The notes below the pieces were generated by a model. The model worked only from the letters and a program-made list of their open reading frames with translations, was not told where the DNA came from and made no database searches. A stretch of DNA of 47,810 nucleotides, from contig JAAYVD010000108.1 in assembly GCA_012517355.1 (NCBI GenBank), positions 1 through 47,810 on the forward strand, written 5' to 3'. The translations under genes and the position numbers were made by a program. Source of the stretch: Candidatus Rifleibacteriota bacterium. Lineage in GTDB: Bacteria > Muiribacteriota > Ozemobacteria > Ozemobacterales > Ozemobacteraceae. Shown here piece by piece: positions 2 through 42,587 of the stretch. Within the stretch, counting starts at the first letter, position 1; every line of letters begins with the position of its first letter.

Positions 2-1018
2 GGGTGGGTGGGTGGGCTGGTGGGCGAGCACCTGCTGCAACCGCTGGGGCGTATGCAATCGGTCCTCGCAGGGGTGGCGGCGGGAAACCTCGAGACGGAA
101 CTGCGGTCGGCCCGGGCCGATGAACTGGGGGAACTGGCCGGCCAGCTCGACGAGATGATCCGGGGCCTGCGGCGCCGGCGGGACCTGGCCCGGTTCGTGT
201 CGGGGACGCTCGACGCCCGCGTGCGGCAGGAGGCGGCGGGGGACGGGCTGGGCCCGCGGGTCGACGCCGGGGTGGTGCTGGTTTCCGACCTGCGGGGCTT
301 CACCAGCATGTCGGAGACGCACCCGCCGGAGGAGATCGTCGCCCTGCTCAACAGCCACATCGAGGCCATGACGGGGCCCATCCATGCCGAGGGTGGCCGC
401 ATCGAGCAGTTCATCGGCGACGCCATCGTCGCCCTCTTCACCGGCCCCGGGCCCCGTGAGGGGCGGCCGGGCGGGGACGGGAGCGGCCGGATGACAGGCG
501 GGGAAGCCGCCGGAGCATCGGCGCGGGCGGCGGTGCGGGCGGCCTGCGCCATGCGCCGGGCCCACCTGGCCCTGCAGGAGACGCGACGCGGGCAGGGGCG
601 GTTTCCCTACGAGATGGGGGTGGGCATCGACGGCGGACCGCTGCTGATGGGAGTGATCGCCGGCGAGGGGAGGGCGGAGTTCTCGGTCATCGGGCCGGCC
701 CGGGACGGGGCCGAGGAGCTGGAAACCCGGTCCCGCGAGGGGCGGCATTCCCGCATCCTGGTGGCGGATGCCCTGTGGCCGTCGCTGGCGGTCGCCTTCA
801 CCGCGACCCCGGGTCCGGGCGGGGGCTGTCGCGAGATCCTGCTGGATACCCCCACCCCTGCCGCCGACCGGGGGAGGCCCGCCGGTGACCTGCCCCGGCC
901 GGGAGGAGGCCGGGCGGGATCCCCTGGCGCCCCGGATGGTGTCGTGAATCGTGGGGCAGACGCCTTGCCGGGGGGCCGGCCGCCCGGTTCCGGGCTTCCG
1001 GAAGGGGGTCGGGCGTGA
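2..1018 (+). CDS. HAMP + class III nucleotide cyclase, metal-binding half (5' end cut by window)
   Basis: The frame is open to the window edge, so the N-terminus (probably membrane segments and a sensor) lies outside; residues here are numbered from the in-frame GTG at position 8. Residues 8-60 look like the end of a transmembrane/HAMP module. Residues 85-255 are a class III adenylate/guanylate cyclase domain. Both metal-binding Asp residues are present: D94 in SDLRGFT and D138 in GDAIVALF. The other catalytic positions are lost. Q134 replaces the adenine-selecting Lys. The segment VIGPARDGAEEL (227-238) replaces the usual VIGDxVNxAxRL, giving D233 for the transition-state Asn and E237 for the Arg. 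A Gly/Pro-rich tail follows. The stop overlaps the next gene's GTG by 4 nt (GTGA), implying coupled translation. Alone it should not work as a homodimer; paired with the next protein it could supply the metal side of one active site. The family call is firm, the pairing is inferred. Confidence 0.85.
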   Translation, partial: GWVGGLVGEHLLQPLGRMQSVLAGVAAGNLETELRSARADELGELAGQLDEMIRGLRRRRDLARFVSGTLDARVRQEAAGDGLGPRVDAGVVLVSDLRGFTSMSETHPPEEIVALLNSHIEAMTGPIHAEGGRIEQFIGDAIVALFTGPGPREGRPGGDGSGRMTGGEAAGASARAAVRAACAMRRAHLALQETRRGQGRFPYEMGVGIDGGPLLMGVIAGEGRAEFSVIGPARDGAEELETRSREGRHSRILVADALWPSLAVAFTATPGPGGGCREILLDTPTPAADRGRPAGDLPRPGGGRAGSPGAPDGVVNRGADALPGGRPPGSGLPEGGRA

Positions 1019-4000
1019 GCCGGTCCCTGGTGGTCGCGCTGGTGGTGGTGCTGTTCGTGGGAGCCACCCTGGCGCTGGCGAACTGGACCCGGGCGGCCGG
1101 GGCGCGGCAGTGGCAGGAGGCTCTCGTGGACGAGGCCACCCGCGAGACCTTCCAGGAACTCGACCGGGTCCAGACCACCGCCGACATCGAGTCGCAGATC
1201 GGCAGCCTGCTGAACGTCTTCGCGGCGCGGGTTCGCGCGGCGGCGGGGGGACCGCGGGCGGCGGCCCGGGGGGAACAGGCCTGGCGCGAGCTGCTGCAGC
1301 CGAACCTGCCGCCCCACGACCTGTTCGTCTACGGGCCGGCGGCGGGGTCCATGGCGGCTCCCCTCCTGTTTTCCCACGAACACCCGCTCGGGTTCGGGGC
1401 GGTGGCGGACGAGTATTCCCTCTTCCTCGATTCGTTCACCGACCAGGATCCAACGGGTCGGCCGCGCAGCTCCTTCCCCGACTCCCGCATCCGGGCGCTG
1501 GCGCGGGGGATCCGTGACCACGTGGGGGCGGCATTCCCCCTGGAGCCGACCATCCGGCCCCGGGCCGACGTCATGGATTTCCGCACCGCCGACCGGCGCC
1601 TGTTCCTCATCTGGGAGGAATACGGGAGCCTGGGGAAGGTCGTTCTGCTGATGGACGGCAGCCATCTCGCGCCCCAACACCCGTTGCGGGTGATGGCCGG
1701 CCGCTGGGCCCGGCGGGGGACGGGGGTGGCCTTCTGGGACCACTGGCGTCACCGGCTGACCAGCTCGGGGCTGGTGCGCCGGGTTCCCGGGCTGGCCCGG
1801 GACATCGCGGCCCTGGCCGAGCGCCACCGCGATGCCCCACGGTTTTCGGAACAGCGATTGCACCAAGGGCCGGCGGCTGCGGGCCCCGGGGAAGGGCTCC
1901 CTGGAGAGGGGCGACACGAGGGGCGCGCGCCGCCATCGGGGGCGGCCAGGGAGCCCTTCCGACCTCAAGTCGGTGGGTCCGGCCCAGGTGAGGCGGGGGG
2001 CGCGGACGACCCGGTGCGGTTCCTGGTCGCCGGCGGGCCCTTCCTGCCGGGCGGCCGGTTCCGGCCGGTCATGGTACGGGCTTTGCCCGTGACCCCCGCC
2101 CGGATCCCTCCCGGTGAGGCCGCGTTGTTCGCCGCCTCGCTGCTGCTGTTCGGGGTGACCGTCTGGGCCGCGGTCGAGGGGGCGGTCTTCGGCCGCCGCC
2201 CTGCCTTTCCCGTGCGGGTCGTCCTGGTGTTCGCCTTCGTGCTGGTGGCCATCCTGCCCTTGTCGGGGGTGGGTTTCTTCGTCCATGCCCTGACCCGGGA
2301 ATGGGTGGACCGGGAACGGGACCGGCTCGCCCGGGAACTGCACGAGGACCTGCGGGCGATCGACACCAGTTTCGAACGCACCCTGGCGAGCTACACCTGG
2401 CAGTTGCGGTCCTGGACCCGCGATCCGGCGGTCCAGGGACGCCTGGAGCGCGCTCTCGCGACGGACGACCCCGAAGCCGTGGTGCGGGAGTTCCAGGCGA
2501 TCATCGAGCGGTTCCGGGCCCACAACACCGTCAAGTTCGCGGCGGTGGTAGGTCCCCGCGGCCTGTTCGCCGCCTGGCGGATCATCTTTTCGGCCATCCA
2601 CCGCCGGTACCTCGACACCATCCTGGAGAAGGTCATGCAAAGCACCCTCTCGCAGCACCTGGGGGAGTTCAACCCCGACCTGGCGGGAACCGGTCCGGGC
2701 GGGCCGGCGGTCAATGCCCCCGACCGGGGTGCCCTGTACCGCGAGATGGGCTACCAGTCGCTCTTCCAGATCGTCGGTCCGCAGGGGTTCATCACCATGG
2801 TGGCCTATCCCGAGGAGATGCTGCGGGTCACGCTGCGGGCGACCTGGCTGGGCATGTTCTCCGTCCCGGTGCCCATCCAAAGGACCATCACCTTCGTGTT
2901 CCGGTGGCACCTGGTCAACCGCGAGCTGGAGTACCTCCACCTGCAGAGCCAGATCGGGCCGCACGAGGCGGACGACCCCGGCAACGCCCGGTTCGGGGTG
3001 TGCGGGTCGCAGGACTACTACTTCCCGCCGGTGCCGGCGGGCCTGGACGTGGCTTCCTACGACGGCCTGCTCGCCGCCGCCGACCAGGTTTTCAACTCCC
3101 AGATCGGCATGCGGTTCCGGGAGGACGATCGTCCGGACCGGCGGCTGGTCGAGATCATGGTTCCCCGGCAGCTCTGCTCCATCCTGGTCGGGACGCGCGC
3201 CACCGCCTGGCTGGACGAGGCGGCCCGCCGGGCCCACGCCGCGGCGAGCCTGATCCTGTTCTTGATCCTGCTTGCCGCCATCCTCATCGGCGCGTTGACC
3301 GCGGGCTTCTTCCTCGAACCGTTGCGGGCCCTGCGGCAGGGGGCGCGGGAGATCGGCCGGGGCAACCTGGCGGCCCGCCTGGACATCCGGCGTGGGGACG
3401 AGTTCGACGACCTGGCCGACACCTTCAACCGGATGGCGCAGGGGTTGCAGGAGGGCCGCACGCTCGGCCGGTTCGTCTCCAGTGCCGTCCGGGAGATGGT
3501 CGGGGCGGGCCGCATGGGGGAAGGGCCGGCGCCGGCCCATCGCTGTCGGGCCACGATCCTGTTTTCCCAGGTCGTTCCGGCGGCCGCGGCGCGTGGTGAT
3601 CCCGACCGGTTCTTCGCCTGCCTGGACGCCCACCTGCGCGCCATCGAGGAGGCCACCGGCCGGTTCGGCGGGGATATCGACAAGATCATCGGCGAGAAGG
3701 TGCTGGTGGTGTTTTCGCACGAGGCTTTTCCCACCGGTCAGGCGGCCGCGGCCGCGGCGTTCCGGGTCGTCCGGGCGCTGGAACGGGCGCGGCCCGGGCT
3801 TCCGCTCGCCGAACGGCTGGTGGCGGGCATCACCACCGGGGAAGTGGTGAGCGGGGTGCTGGGGGCGGCCAGCGTGCGGCTCGACCACACGGTCATCGGC
3901 GATCCGGTCAACCTGGCCGCCCGCCTGGCCGACCTCGCCCGCCGGATGGACGGGGAAGCGGTGATCCTGGCCGCCGGCGAGGCGGTGCGCCTGGCCGGGT

Positions 4001-4098
4001 GGCAGCGGCAGGCCCGCCGGCTCGACCTGACCGCGGTGAAAGGCAAGACCCAGCAGGTGGAGGCCTGGCGCCTCGCCGCAGAGGGGGCGCGGGGGTAG
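1015..4098 (+). CDS. Membrane sensor class III cyclase, substrate/transition-state half
   Basis: 1027 aa, GTG start inside the stop of the upstream cyclase. Predicted membrane segments lie near residues 3-22, 371-391, 402-424 and 744-767, leaving two extracytoplasmic regions (about 23-370 and 425-742) that may sense ligands; I recognise no family in them. A HAMP linker (about 768-820, with GDEFDDLADTFNRMAQ) leads to a cyclase domain at 845-1020. Its first metal Asp is Q852 (LFSQ instead of LFSD) and its second is E894 (IIGEKV instead of FIGDAV). It keeps K890, T959, N966 and R970 (VIGDPVNLAARL), the substrate and transition-state residues. This is the mirror image of the upstream protein, like C2 versus C1 of mammalian adenylyl cyclases. 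Lys plus Thr suggests ATP, hence cAMP. Residues about 280-345 are low complexity and include an in-frame copy of a dispersed repeat. The product is inferred, not shown. Confidence 0.88.
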   Translation: MSRSLVVALVVVLFVGATLALANWTRAAGARQWQEALVDEATRETFQELDRVQTTADIESQIGSLLNVFAARVRAAAGGPRAAARGEQAWRELLQPNLPPHDLFVYGPAAGSMAAPLLFSHEHPLGFGAVADEYSLFLDSFTDQDPTGRPRSSFPDSRIRALARGIRDHVGAAFPLEPTIRPRADVMDFRTADRRLFLIWEEYGSLGKVVLLMDGSHLAPQHPLRVMAGRWARRGTGVAFWDHWRHRLTSSGLVRRVPGLARDIAALAERHRDAPRFSEQRLHQGPAAAGPGEGLPGEGRHEGRAPPSGAAREPFRPQVGGSGPGEAGGADDPVRFLVAGGPFLPGGRFRPVMVRALPVTPARIPPGEAALFAASLLLFGVTVWAAVEGAVFGRRPAFPVRVVLVFAFVLVAILPLSGVGFFVHALTREWVDRERDRLARELHEDLRAIDTSFERTLASYTWQLRSWTRDPAVQGRLERALATDDPEAVVREFQAIIERFRAHNTVKFAAVVGPRGLFAAWRIIFSAIHRRYLDTILEKVMQSTLSQHLGEFNPDLAGTGPGGPAVNAPDRGALYREMGYQSLFQIVGPQGFITMVAYPEEMLRVTLRATWLGMFSVPVPIQRTITFVFRWHLVNRELEYLHLQSQIGPHEADDPGNARFGVCGSQDYYFPPVPAGLDVASYDGLLAAADQVFNSQIGMRFREDDRPDRRLVEIMVPRQLCSILVGTRATAWLDEAARRAHAAASLILFLILLAAILIGALTAGFFLEPLRALRQGAREIGRGNLAARLDIRRGDEFDDLADTFNRMAQGLQEGRTLGRFVSSAVREMVGAGRMGEGPAPAHRCRATILFSQVVPAAAARGDPDRFFACLDAHLRAIEEATGRFGGDIDKIIGEKVLVVFSHEAFPTGQAAAAAAFRVVRALERARPGLPLAERLVAGITTGEVVSGVLGAASVRLDHTVIGDPVNLAARLADLARRMDGEAVILAAGEAVRLAGWQRQARRLDLTAVKGKTQQVEAWRLAAEGARG
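1929..1978 (+). repeat. Dispersed palindromic repeat, in-frame copy inside the cyclase gene
   Basis: This stretch matches the second part of the 70-bp repeat found at 5121-5274: a CCGCCATC...GGCGG hairpin half, then GCCCTTCCGACCTCAAGTC. It translates as PPSGAAREPFRPQVG, close to PPSAAARGKPFRHQVG, which the same frame of the intergenic copy would encode. It sits in a low-complexity part of the first extracytoplasmic region, just before the second membrane segment, and does not break the reading frame. Confidence 0.7.
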
Positions 4099-5028: not shown

Positions 5029-5120
5029 GCCGGAAAAGACGCCGGCCCGGCCGCTCCGCTCCTGTTTTCCCCGCGCCCCCTCTGAGAAAGCGTGTGGCCA
5101 CCTCGGCCCCGTTGCCGGGC

Positions 5121-5274
5121 GCGAAACGGGCGTTTCGTGCCGCCATCCGCGGCGGCAAGGGGGAAGCCCTTCCGACATCAGGTCGGTCGGCCCCTTTGCG
5201 AGGCGCGAAACGGCCGTTTCGCACCGCCATCCGTGGCGGCAAAGGGGAAGCCCTTCCGACATCTTGTCGGTCGG
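5121..5274 (+). repeat. Two tandem copies of a 70-bp dispersed palindromic repeat
   Basis: Copies at 5121-5190 and 5205-5274 are 84 bp apart and nearly identical. Each has three short palindromes in a row: GCGAAACGGGCGTTTCG, then CCGCCATCCGCGGCGG, then CGACATCAGGTCGGTCGG. Between the last two lies AAGGGGGAAGCCCTTC. Related copies occur at 1929, 20404, 33278, 42503 and probably 45570. They fill most of the 5029-5441 gap before the pyrimidine operon. I see no convincing promoter in that gap. Confidence 0.85.
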
Positions 5275-5441: not shown

Positions 5442-6314
5442 ATGCCCCGGAAGGTGAAATGCGGTCTCATCCAGTGCGGACTCCCGCTCCACGAGGGCGA
5501 GGGGACGGTCGCGAAGATCAAGGAGGCCATGATCGACAAGCACCTCAAGATGATCGACCAGGCCGGCAAGAAGAAGGTCCAGATCCTGTGCCTGCAGGAG
5601 ATCTTCTCGACCCCCTACTTCTGCCCGTCGCAGGATGCCAAGTGGTATGCCACGGCCGAGGCCGTTCCCGGCCCCACCACCGACCTGCTGTCAAAGTACG
5701 CGAAGAAGTACAAGATGGTCATCGTGGTCCCGATGTACGAGCGGGCCGCCGCCGGGGTCTATTACAACACCTCCGCGGTCATCGACGCCGACGGCGAGTA
5801 CCTCGGCAAATACCGCAAGATCCACATCCCGCAGGTGGCCGGCTTCTGGGAGAAATTCTTCTTCAAGCCCGGCAACCTCGGCTACCCCGTGTTCGAGACC
5901 GCCTACGCCAAGGTCGGCGTCTACATCTGCTACGACCGGCACTTCCCCGAGGGGGCCCGCTGCCTCGGTCTGAACGGCGCCGAGATCGTGTTCAACCCGT
6001 CGGCGACCGTGGCCGGCCTGTCGCAACACCTGTGGAAACTCGAGCAGCCCGCCCACGCCGTCGCCAACGGCTATTTCATGGGCTGCATCAACCGCGTCGG
6101 CACCGAACGGCCCTGGAAGATCGGCAAGTTCTACGGCCACAGCTACTTCGTCAACCCGCGCGGCGAGATCCTGGCCGAGGGCAGCGAGGACCATGATGAA
6201 GTGGTGACCATCGACATCGATCTCGACAAGATCGACGAGGTGCGCAACACCTGGCAGTTCTACCGCGACCGGCGGCCCGAGACCTACGACGAACTGGGCA
6301 TGCTGCTGCCCTGA
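5442..6314 (+). CDS. pydC: Beta-ureidopropionase (nitrilase family)
   Basis: 290 aa, ATG preceded by GAAGGAGG. It is a carbon-nitrogen hydrolase with the nitrilase triad visible: E53 in QEIF, K126 in RKIHIP and C163 in ICYDRHFPE. Ureidopropionases hydrolyse N-carbamoyl-beta-alanine (or N-carbamoyl-beta-aminoisobutyrate) to the beta-amino acid, CO2 and ammonia, the last hydrolytic step of reductive pyrimidine breakdown. The close relatives N-carbamoylputrescine amidase and D-carbamoylase cannot be excluded by sequence alone. The five following genes (dihydropyrimidinase, aminotransferase, semialdehyde dehydrogenase, PreT, PreA) make the pyrimidine role much the best fit. It is the first gene of the operon, and the protein is cytosolic. 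Confidence 0.88.
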   Translation: MPRKVKCGLIQCGLPLHEGEGTVAKIKEAMIDKHLKMIDQAGKKKVQILCLQEIFSTPYFCPSQDAKWYATAEAVPGPTTDLLSKYAKKYKMVIVVPMYERAAAGVYYNTSAVIDADGEYLGKYRKIHIPQVAGFWEKFFFKPGNLGYPVFETAYAKVGVYICYDRHFPEGARCLGLNGAEIVFNPSATVAGLSQHLWKLEQPAHAVANGYFMGCINRVGTERPWKIGKFYGHSYFVNPRGEILAEGSEDHDEVVTIDIDLDKIDEVRNTWQFYRDRRPETYDELGMLLP

Positions 6315-6348
6315 CGCCCGACCGCACCGACGCAAGGAAAGGAGACAC

Positions 6349-7818
6349 ATGGCCCCCATCCGCACCGCCCGAACGAAACCCGTTGCCGCCCCCGCCGCCG
6401 GCCGACCGACCGGCCTGCCCCGGTACACCCTGATCCGTCGCGGCACCATCCACACCGCCGCCGATTCCTTCCCCGCCGACCTGCTGATCGAGAAGGGGAA
6501 GATCGTCCAGATCGGCGACGTTCCCCCCGGCCCCGGCATGCTGATCATCGATGCCAAGGGGCTCGAGATCTTCCCCGGCGGCATCGACGTCCATACCCAC
6601 TTCGAGCTGCCCTTCATGGGCACCGTGTCGGCCGACGACTTCGAGACAGGCACCGTCGCCGCGGCCTGCGGCGGCACCACCGCCATCGTCGACTTCGTCA
6701 TCCCCGGCAAGGGCCAGCGCATCACCGAGGCGGCCAAGGCCTGGCACAAGAAGGCCGCCGGCAAGGCCGTCGTCGACTACGGGTTCCACATCGCCCTCGT
6801 CGAGGCCACGCCCCAGGTTCTCGCCGACATCCCCAAGGTCGTGGCCGACGGCATCACCAGCTTCAAGTGCTTCATGGCCTACAAGGGCTCGCTGATGATC
6901 GACGACACCCAGCTCCTGGCGGTGCTCGCCGCGGCCCGCCGGCACGGGGCGCTCGTCTCCGTCCACGCCGAGAACGGCGACATGCTGTCGTGGGTCATGG
7001 AACAACTGGTCGCCGCGAAGAAGACCTCGCCCCGCTACCACCCCGTGGCCCACCCCGCCCTGGCCGAGGGCGAGGCCGCCCACCGCGCCATCGCCCTGGC
7101 CGCGATGGCCGAAGCCCCGCTCTACATCGTCCACCTGAGCTGCATGGAGGCCCTCGACGAGGTGGTTGCCGCCCGGATGGCCGGCCAGCCCGTGTTCGCC
7201 GAGACCTGCCCGCAGTATCTCCTGCTCGACGACCGGCTCTACGAGAAACCCGGCTTCGAAGGGGCCAAGTGGGTGATGTCGCCGCCCCTGCGGCACGTCT
7301 CGAACCAGGTGCCGCTGTGGTCGGGTCTGCGCGAGGGATTCCTGCAGTGCGTCGCCACCGATCACTGCTCATTCCGCTTCAAGGGCCAGAAAGACATGGG
7401 GAAGGGGAACTTCCTGAGGATCCCCAACGGCATTCCCGCCGTCGGCGACCGCATGAACCTCCTCTACTCGCACGGGGTCCGCAAGGGCCGCCTGTCACCC
7501 CAGCAGTTCGCCGCCATCACCGCGACCAACCCGGCCCGCCTGTTCGGCATGTACCCCGACAAGGGGACGATCGCCGTCGGCTCCGACGCCGACCTCGTGC
7601 TCTACGACCCGAAGAAGACAGGCGTGGTGTCGGCCAAAACCACGCGCCACAACGTCGACTACTCGGCCTTCGAGGGGTTCCGGCTGAACGGCCTGCCCGT
7701 GCTCGTGCTCTCCCGCGGCGAAGTGATCGCCCGCGACGGCGACTACGTGGGCGGCAAGGGGCGCGGCCGCTACCTGGCCCGCCGGCCGTTCGACCTGGCC
7801 CACTGGGGATACCGCTGA
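6349..7818 (+). CDS. pydB: Dihydropyrimidinase / hydantoinase
   Basis: 489 aa, start set by AAGGAAAGGAG just upstream. It is a cyclic amidohydrolase with a two-metal centre. Visible ligands are H82 and H84 (DVHTHFE), the Lys expected to be carbamylated, K173 (SFKCFMAYKG), H206 (VHAENGD), H262 (IVHLSC) and D338 (ATDHCSF). It opens the ring of dihydrouracil or dihydrothymine to N-carbamoyl-beta-amino acids, which the preceding gene product would hydrolyse. An N-terminal extension of about 24 residues rich in Ala, Pro and Arg precedes the first beta strand; a shorter start is possible but has no better ribosome site. The gap to the upstream gene is 34 nt, consistent with one transcript. Confidence 0.92.
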   Translation: MAPIRTARTKPVAAPAAGRPTGLPRYTLIRRGTIHTAADSFPADLLIEKGKIVQIGDVPPGPGMLIIDAKGLEIFPGGIDVHTHFELPFMGTVSADDFETGTVAAACGGTTAIVDFVIPGKGQRITEAAKAWHKKAAGKAVVDYGFHIALVEATPQVLADIPKVVADGITSFKCFMAYKGSLMIDDTQLLAVLAAARRHGALVSVHAENGDMLSWVMEQLVAAKKTSPRYHPVAHPALAEGEAAHRAIALAAMAEAPLYIVHLSCMEALDEVVAARMAGQPVFAETCPQYLLLDDRLYEKPGFEGAKWVMSPPLRHVSNQVPLWSGLREGFLQCVATDHCSFRFKGQKDMGKGNFLRIPNGIPAVGDRMNLLYSHGVRKGRLSPQQFAAITATNPARLFGMYPDKGTIAVGSDADLVLYDPKKTGVVSAKTTRHNVDYSAFEGFRLNGLPVLVLSRGEVIARDGDYVGGKGRGRYLARRPFDLAHWGYR

Positions 7819-7860
7819 GCGGCAAAAGCCGCCGGCATCAGGACAGCAAAGGATGACGAG

Positions 7861-9162
7861 ATGAAACACCAACGTCCCACCAACCAGCAGGTGACCGCGA
7901 AGTACAAGGAGTTTTTGTTCCCCGGCGTCATCACCTACTACCAGGATCCCCTGCCCGTCGCCTCCGGCGCCGGCTGCCGGGTGAAGGATTTTGACGGCCG
8001 CGAGTACCTCGACTTCTTCGGGGGCATCCTGACCGTCTCGCTGGGCCATTGCCAGAAGACCATCACCGAGCGGGTCGTCGAGCAGGCCCGCACGCTCCAG
8101 CACGCCTCGACCCTCTACCCGACCCTGCCGGCGGCCGAACTGGCCGAGAAGCTGGCCGGCATCGCGCCCGGGAAGCTGAAGAAGAGCTTCTTCACCAACA
8201 GCGGCACCGAGGCCGACGAGACGGCCGTGCTGCTGGCCCAGCACTACACCGGGAACCAGGAGATCATCGCCCTGCGGCACTGCTACAGCGGCCGCTCGTC
8301 CCTGGCGATGAGCCTCACCGCCCACTCCGCCTGGCGCATCGCCAAGACCCAGATGCCCGGCATCCGGCACGCGCACGCGCCCTACTGCTACCGCTGCCCG
8401 TTCCACCTGTCCTTCCCGGGCTGCGACCTGGCCTGCGCCACCGATCTGGAGGAGCTGATCAAGACCGAGACCTGCGGCAAGCCCGCCGCCTTCATCGCCG
8501 AACCGATCCTCGGCGTGGGCGGGTTCATCGTGCCGCCGAAGGACTACTTCAAGGTCGCCGTCGAGATCGTGCGCAAGGCGGGCGGCGTGTTCATCGCCGA
8601 CGAGGTGCAGACCGGCTGGGGCCGCACCGGCAAGCACTGGTTCGGCATCGAGCATTTCGGCGTGCAGCCCGACATCATGACCTCCGCCAAGGGCATGGCC
8701 AACGGCATCCCCATCGGCTGGACGATCGCCACCGCCGAAATCGCCGACAGCCTCAAGGGCCTCACCATCTCGACGTTCGGCGGCAACCCGGTCTCCTGCG
8801 CGGCCGCCCAGGCCACCCTCGAGGTCATCGAGAAGGAGCACCTGCTCGACCACGTCGAGAAGATGGGCCAGCACCTGACCGGCCACCTGCGCAGCCTGCA
8901 GGAGGAATTCCCGGTCATCGGCGAGGTGCGCGGCATGGGCCTGATGGCCGGCGTCGAGATCGTCACCGACCGCAAGAGCAAGGCCCCCAACGCCCCGGCC
9001 GTGGTCAAGCTGTTCGAGGAGACGAAGAAGGACGGCCTGCTGATCGGCAAGGGCGGCCTCTACGGCAACGTCCTGCGCGTCTCGCCCCCGATGATGGTCA
9101 CCAAGGGCGAGATCGACGAGGCGATGAAGACCCTGCGGGCGGCCTTCCAGCGGCTGTCCTGA
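7861..9162 (+). CDS. Class III aminotransferase, probably beta-alanine (beta-aminoisobutyrate):pyruvate type
   Basis: 433 aa, PLP-dependent fold type I. The PLP Lys is K277 (TSAKGMANG), the ring-contacting Asp is D247 (IADEVQTGWGRTG), and the phosphate-binding SGTEADE lies at 114-120. It resembles the alanine-glyoxylate aminotransferase 2 branch, which uses beta-alanine and 3-aminoisobutyrate as amino donors. It has that branch's Cys-rich loop (C176, C179, C188, C192). Here it would convert the beta-amino acid released by ureidopropionase into malonate semialdehyde or methylmalonate semialdehyde, the substrate of the dehydrogenase encoded 55 nt downstream. The amino acceptor (pyruvate or 2-oxoglutarate) cannot be read from the sequence. 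The ribosome site is weak (AAGGATGA). Confidence 0.87.
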   Translation: MKHQRPTNQQVTAKYKEFLFPGVITYYQDPLPVASGAGCRVKDFDGREYLDFFGGILTVSLGHCQKTITERVVEQARTLQHASTLYPTLPAAELAEKLAGIAPGKLKKSFFTNSGTEADETAVLLAQHYTGNQEIIALRHCYSGRSSLAMSLTAHSAWRIAKTQMPGIRHAHAPYCYRCPFHLSFPGCDLACATDLEELIKTETCGKPAAFIAEPILGVGGFIVPPKDYFKVAVEIVRKAGGVFIADEVQTGWGRTGKHWFGIEHFGVQPDIMTSAKGMANGIPIGWTIATAEIADSLKGLTISTFGGNPVSCAAAQATLEVIEKEHLLDHVEKMGQHLTGHLRSLQEEFPVIGEVRGMGLMAGVEIVTDRKSKAPNAPAVVKLFEETKKDGLLIGKGGLYGNVLRVSPPMMVTKGEIDEAMKTLRAAFQRLS

Positions 9163-20403: not shown

Positions 20404-20567
20404 CCCCCGACCGGCACGATGTCCGGAAGTTGGGTTTCCACCTTGTCGCCACGGATCGTGGTTCGAAACGCAAGGTTCCCGTATAGCAAGGGGGCGACCG
20501 ACACGATGTCGGCAGGAAGGCACCCTCCTTGCCGCCACGGATGCCGACGCGAAACGGGCGTTTCGCG
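20404..20567 (-). repeat. Two copies of the dispersed palindromic repeat, inverted
   Basis: Read on the minus strand, 20567-20494 matches the 70-bp unit at 5121 through all three palindromes, including the GAAACG/CGTTTC one. A second, more diverged copy spans about 20480-20404. They lie between the convergent TerB-like and kinase genes. Confidence 0.75.
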
Positions 20568-20583
20568 CCCCGCCAGGGGGCCG

Positions 20584-42361: not shown

Positions 42362-42502
42362 GGGGATCCTCCTGGACGGGTTCGGGGCGGCCGGTGGATG
42401 GGGGAAAGGCCGTCCCGTCTGCATGGTAACAGACTTCCCGGGGCTTTGCACGGGAATTCCGGACAGGCCCCCTGGCCGTGCGCGGGAACGGAGGGGGCGC
42501 CC

Positions 42503-42547
42503 GGCCATCCGTGGCGGTCAGGGGAAGTCGTTCCGACTTCGTGGCGG
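42503..42547 (+). repeat. Partial copy of the dispersed palindromic repeat
   Basis: GCCATCCGTGGCGG, then TCAGGGGAAGTCGTTCCGAC and TTCGTGGCGG, follow the middle and end of the 70-bp unit, with the first palindrome missing. It lies between divergent genes, just upstream of the promoter at 42588. Confidence 0.6.
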
Positions 42548-42587
42548 TCAGGGCCCGCCTTTTTTCGTGCGGAAGGGGCCCGTTCCC

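Follow-up and report, generated by a model that had tools for sequence, protein, structure and literature searches.

The analyzed window is an entire contig (C4) of 47810 bases from a 7.1 Mb Riflebacteria genome, placed near Ozemobacteraceae, and it carries two coupled cyclase genes on the plus strand, to which all window coordinates given here refer. Gene A (2..1018) is an ORF that supplies only the C-terminal portion of a receptor cyclase of A-type (C1-like); since it opens at the edge of the contig, its sensor region is absent. Gene B (1015..4098) encodes a full-length B-type (C2-like) receptor cyclase of 1027 aa. The stop codon of A and the start codon of B overlap by 4 nt (GTGA, 1015..1018), as a preliminary description of this DNA had pointed out, and a reading of the sequence confirmed that this overlap is real; in the same-genus relative G001 it has the form ATGA. 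Residues were numbered from the GTG at nt 8 for gene A and from the GTG at 1015 for gene B.

Both products combine a HAMP domain with a Guanylate_cyc domain. In gene A these two matches exceed the Pfam cut-off, with HAMP at 29..172 (PF00672, residues 10–57 of the frame 2..1015) and the catalytic domain, delimited by a profile match, at 245..823. The relative of A in G001 is ~1060 aa long and has four transmembrane (TM) segments as judged by hydropathy. In gene B, whose relative in G001 is 56% identical, hydropathy placed TM1 at 1024..1080, TM2 and TM3 at 2119..2274 and TM4 at 3241..3297, and these are followed by HAMP (3298..3453; Pfam PF00672, residues 762–813) and the catalytic domain (3526..4053; profile match). 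In the AlphaFold2 model of gene B the HAMP and catalytic domains are usable, while much of the sensor regions has a pLDDT <50; the C-terminal part of this model matches bPAC, OaPAC, CyaC, CyaB and other class III cyclases. Hydropathy alone gives the general layout of each half, i.e. TM, an outer region of ~320 aa, TM-TM, a second outer region of ~330 aa, TM, HAMP and cyclase. Searches of the outer regions of the A and B receptors against Pfam and NCBIfam revealed no sensor domain.

Several other features of the window were recorded. A REP-like repeat of 84 nt, which has an inverted core and is dispersed over at least 40 sites of the genome, occurs in the window at 5103-5270, 1895-1980, 20406-20583 and 42466-42556. 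Gene B itself contains a diverged copy, located where its protein has an in-frame insertion of ~50 residues relative to that of G001. The genes downstream of the pair (5442-9162), judged from their translations only, resemble a cluster for the degradation of pyrimidine or hydantoin, with a nitrilase-like amidohydrolase, a dihydropyrimidinase-like protein and a class III aminotransferase.

The profile matches and the fold identify A and B as catalytic domains of class III nucleotide cyclases. Against PF00211 (cut-off of 21.9 bits), A scored 31.5 bits, and B scored 21.5 bits, just below the cut-off, in one scan and 25.9 bits, above it, in the genome scan. The reference positions of the six catalytic residues were taken from an alignment with the solved CyaB (3r5g), Cya2 (2w01) and bPAC. 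In A, both metal-binding Asp are retained (D94, metal Asp 1, 287..289, and D138, metal Asp 2, 419..421), Q134 (407..409) occupies the Lys position, and S226, D233 and E237 (683..718) replace Thr/Asp, Asn and Arg, respectively. In B, Q852 (3568..3570) replaces metal Asp 1 and E894 (3694..3696) sits at metal Asp 2, with the base-selecting K890 (3682..3684) and T959, N966 and R970 (3889..3924) being retained; K890 and T959 are adenylyl-type base-selecting residues. The preliminary description had named the same twelve residues and read them as two complementary half-sites, and the alignment placed every one of them correctly; no alignment showed an Asp at the first metal position of B or the Asn/Arg in A. 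Since the six residues do not occur together in one chain, neither A nor B fits a homodimeric bacterial class III cyclase.

A scan of the host genome with PF00211 revealed 87 cyclase domains, whose loci were fetched and typed at the six positions. Two adjoining cyclase domains (three in one case) were found at 28 loci, and in all 28, as in the window pair, the half-sites are complementary in the manner of a heterodimeric (C1/C2-type) class III cyclase. Twelve of these pairs are fused in one ORF with the layout (4TM-HAMP-C1)-(4TM-HAMP-C2), 15 are encoded by adjacent genes (12 in the order A then B, 3 in the order B then A), and one A-B pair (L069) is broken by an in-frame TAG. Complete sites (both metal Asp together with Asn/Arg) occur in none of the 56 paired domains versus 28 of the ~32 unpaired domains of the same genome (Fisher p ~2e-18, with the unpaired row entered as 28/33), and the complementarity of the pairs is far beyond chance.

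The coupling of the genes is likewise recurrent. A 4-nt stop/start overlap was found in 31 of 64 tested adjacencies between separate A and B ORFs, and the separate AB pairs fetched from G000-G002 have it with a single exception. As the 64 also include junctions between neighbouring pairs, the proportion for cognate pairs alone is higher. Some loci depart from the simple pair. One locus (L082) has the order A-A-B, and this and other arrays (A-B-A, A-B-A-B and B-A-B-A-B-A, at L219, L231, L232 and L179) suggest tandem duplication of pairs and perhaps partner exchange. A solitary B-type domain (L086, 1830-4256 of G000:C112; residues GKDTNR) has a C-terminal extension and no adjoining A; its partner may be supplied in trans. 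In G038, an A-type cyclase (L188, 880-4575; residues DKDSEA) is unpaired and lies ~4.6 kb from a complete cyclase.

A search for the split in related genomes had been proposed together with the preliminary description, and the relatives were found to share it rather than to carry complete genes. A scan across 84,980 species yielded Riflebacteria loci from groundwater, rumen and digester genomes, all of them with the A/B arrangement and several being single ORFs of ~2000 aa with C1 followed by C2. The split is present in more than 20 genomes, and A/B pairs occur in nearly all of the checked genomes of the family. Twenty loci from further family members comprised 16 intact A/B pairs, two with one member truncated or frameshifted, one with a contig end at the site of the partner, and one (G006) with a single complete cyclase. 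Pairs also occur in another family of the Riflebacteria (G025, G032), where the order is B-A and the B halves have mostly lost both metal Asp. Overall, 66 complementary pairs were tallied, of which 26 are fused; the named and numbered genome sets overlap, as some are the same genomes (L100 and L236 look identical).

Outside the phylum the picture is different. The non-Riflebacteria loci from the same 84,980-species scan have both metal Asp and the Asn/Arg intact, with the exception of a single domain (L119) with His in place of Arg, and this one aside, the sites are complete in ~100 cyclases sampled across other phyla. An A-type profile was also compared with 84 genomes from two other phyla, and all 37 of its best matches that could be typed are complete. 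Apparent cases outside the phylum were examined and dismissed. Loci L269 and L272 had been typed as B because metal position 1 is absent, which is due to their ORFs starting at a contig end; the halves of UBP17_UBA6191 (L139) share 74% and 60% identity with their counterparts in G025, which is placed in the Riflebacteria; and the domains of L104, labelled Methylomirabilis, group with Riflebacteria, the label being probably wrong.

The pattern of conservation follows the split. Across 31 A domains the two metal Asp (D94 and D138 of the window gene) are the only invariant residues among the six positions, and across 30 B domains Lys, Thr, Asn and Arg (K890, T959, N966 and R970) are all invariant; in a larger set of B domains, Lys is present in 65 of 67 and Thr in 66 of 67. 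The lost positions drift: metal position 1 of B is occupied by G, S, A, H, Q, T, E and others, and the Asn position of A by K, A, R, Q, E, G and others. Many A domains still have Lys and Thr, and about a fifth retain Arg.

Since the typing of A and B by their catalytic residues is partly circular, trees were built without the six catalytic columns. The larger of these groups 77 of the 81 A domains in a single clade (SH-aLRT 96) and places the B domains nearby, in one large group and a few small ones; the A and B labels require 3 and 2 changes, compared with 64 and 61 after shuffling. Riflebacteria cyclases that are complete and HAMP-linked (L089, L090, L229) are placed, with weak support, beside the A group or within its edge. 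This placement would fit a scenario in which an ordinary homodimeric receptor cyclase was duplicated inside the phylum and the two copies then lost opposite halves of the site. The A and B trees mirror each other, with a Mantel r of 0.81 for 57 pairs (0 of 2000 permutations) and of 0.64 for the 28 pairs in the genome of the window (0 of 5000 permutations); this correlation partly reflects the shared ancestry of duplicated pairs, which in itself implies inheritance of the pair as a unit.

In a class III site, as described for transmembrane adenylyl cyclases (tmACs), the two metal Asp come from one protomer and the Lys, Thr/Asp, Asn and Arg from the other (PMC8815786). Under this rule, an A-B dimer would contain exactly one complete site and one lacking both sets of residues. 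Judging from the residues, their conservation, the pairing and the mirrored trees, A and B very probably form an obligate heterodimer, a class III receptor cyclase that has a single live site. As B has the Lys/Thr adenine pair of CyaB and bPAC, the enzyme is most likely an adenylyl cyclase, with ATP as the expected substrate. The live site would receive both metal Asp from A and Lys, Thr, Asn and Arg from B, and the mirror site, with neither set, would be dead. Each half is predicted to be a membrane receptor, and signals arriving at either half may converge on the single site via two HAMP domains, with cAMP as the presumed product. With 28 pairs in the genome, co-translation through the 4-nt overlap, or gene fusion, would keep each half with its cognate partner. 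The same genome has 24 matches to cNMP-binding domains, which may be targets.

It could be asked whether catalysis is needed at all. Class III pseudo-cyclase domains exist, and both halves could belong to them, forming neither a catalytic homodimer nor a catalytic heterodimer and serving as nucleotide sensors or dimerisation modules. A structural model of a fused relative could be read in the same direction, as it shows no docked dimer. This AlphaFold2 model (L103, from C1 to C2, 1181 aa; 10-sequence alignment, pLDDT 73, pTM 0.51) has both catalytic domains folded and matching class III structures, and the top Foldseek match of the whole chain is human AC5, at an rmsd of 34.5 Å and a TM-score of 0.25, values which mean that the domains are undocked and that the model does not show the C1/C2 dimer. 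However, the metal Asp of A and the Lys, Thr, Asn and Arg of B are invariant while the complementary positions drift, and without catalysis there is no reason for exact complementarity in pair after pair, which makes this explanation quite unlikely. A homodimer of one half, active by non-canonical chemistry and with the other half as its regulatory partner, is very unlikely. There are class III cyclases that accept other residues in place of Lys, Thr and Asn, and many A domains keep Lys and Thr, but A lacks Asn and usually Arg, and B always lacks metal Asp 1. Loss of Asn/Arg or of metal Asp 1 cripples class III homodimers such as Rv1625c, and a homodimer would not predict that the lost positions drift in A as well as in B.

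The obligate A-B heterodimer has also to be weighed against explanations that concern the data or the choice of partner. In a high-GC metagenome, a split could in principle be mimicked by frameshifts, misassembly or misalignment, and gene A is indeed cut by a contig end and one pair of the genome (L069) contains a stop codon in frame. The same split, however, recurs in more than 20 genomes, rumen and groundwater Riflebacteria among them, with ORFs open over ~2000 aa; decay or artefact is thus extremely unlikely, and a pseudogene or assembly error was rejected as contradicted by the genome survey. A variant of the heterodimer itself, in which halves of different loci mix freely, so that 28 A and 28 B would make up a combinatorial network in place of 28 insulated receptors, is consistent with the one fold and architecture common to all halves and with the extra unpaired halves (L082, L086). 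Fusion, the 4-nt overlaps and the mirrored A and B trees within the genome point instead to cognate pairing, and free mixing is regarded as unlikely.

Among the closest counterparts of the proposed A-B heterodimer are the mammalian tmACs (AC1-AC9), in which C1 provides the metal Asp and C2 the Lys, Asp/Thr, Asn and Arg, resulting in one live site and one dead pseudo-site; the fused relatives resemble them further in combining two membrane cassettes and two cyclase domains in a single polypeptide. The likeness to C1/C2 had been drawn in the preliminary description from the residues, and it is taken further by the many relatives that join the halves in one chain, C1 then C2, and by the profiles. 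The A-half profile is matched better by mammalian C1, sAC-C1 and sGC-alpha than by their partners, and the B-half profile by C2 (AC5, AC8, IIC2), sAC-C2 and sGC-beta, with AC9 as an exception; the catalytic columns themselves contribute to this sorting. The observed features are best explained by functional equivalence of A and B to C1 and C2. The bacterial proteins differ from tmACs in having 4-TM cassettes with large outer regions and HAMP rather than two 6-TM bundles and Lys/Thr instead of Lys/Asp, and in that many pairs are unfused. With 4 TM and a HAMP domain per half, and with separate genes in the window, they fall outside the tmACs (class IIIa), and the nearest sequence relatives of the halves are CyaB, Cya2 and bPAC rather than tmACs.

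Soluble guanylyl cyclase also consists of two separate subunits with complementary half-sites, A resembling alpha and B beta, but the Riflebacteria pairs are membrane receptors in which no H-NOX or heme domain was found and the Lys/Thr pair predicts ATP as the substrate. The bacterial homodimeric receptor cyclases CyaB, Cya2 and Rv1625c share the catalytic fold but have a complete site per chain and, as homodimers, two symmetric live sites. Obligate heterodimers of two receptor cyclases are known from the NeoR/RGC rhodopsin guanylyl cyclases of chytrid fungi; the cyclase domains of RGC1 and RGC2 retain all catalytic residues (PMC8815786), unlike the complementary half-sites of the Riflebacteria pairs. 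The PADLOC model PycC (Pycsar cyclase) gave matches at the level of the shared fold only (E-values of 4.6e-12 for A and 2.1e-7 for B); A and B are membrane receptors with HAMP.

According to the review Schultz 2022, bacterial class III cyclases homodimerise, and fused dimeric species are unknown in bacteria (PMC9552081). A literature search, which did not extend to subscription papers, found no description of a fused bacterial class III cyclase dimer and no paper on Riflebacteria cyclases. The mechanism is a known one, and what is new is the fused form in a new domain of life, on an unusual scale. It is conceivable, though we would give it somewhat less than an even chance, that Riflebacteria independently evolved a mammalian-type pseudo-heterodimeric adenylyl cyclase, including its one-chain fusion, with the dead site as a regulatory pocket and with dozens of insulated receptors per cell, each integrating two sensor halves into cAMP. 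In mammals, such a regulatory pocket is the forskolin site, which derives from the dead second site.

One genome offers bacterial pairs of both kinds, fused and separate, as dozens of natural variants, so split-site cyclases become testable on bacterial proteins and the steps of duplication, split and fusion can be traced inside one phylum. Fused ORFs have ~8 TM segments, as judged by hydropathy only. Another layout was observed in G029, where two loci (L186, 5316-6506, and L187, 6893-8086) have two close cyclase domains, A-like then B-like, in an ORF of ~1400-1550 aa, an arrangement resembling that of human soluble adenylyl cyclase (ADCY10).
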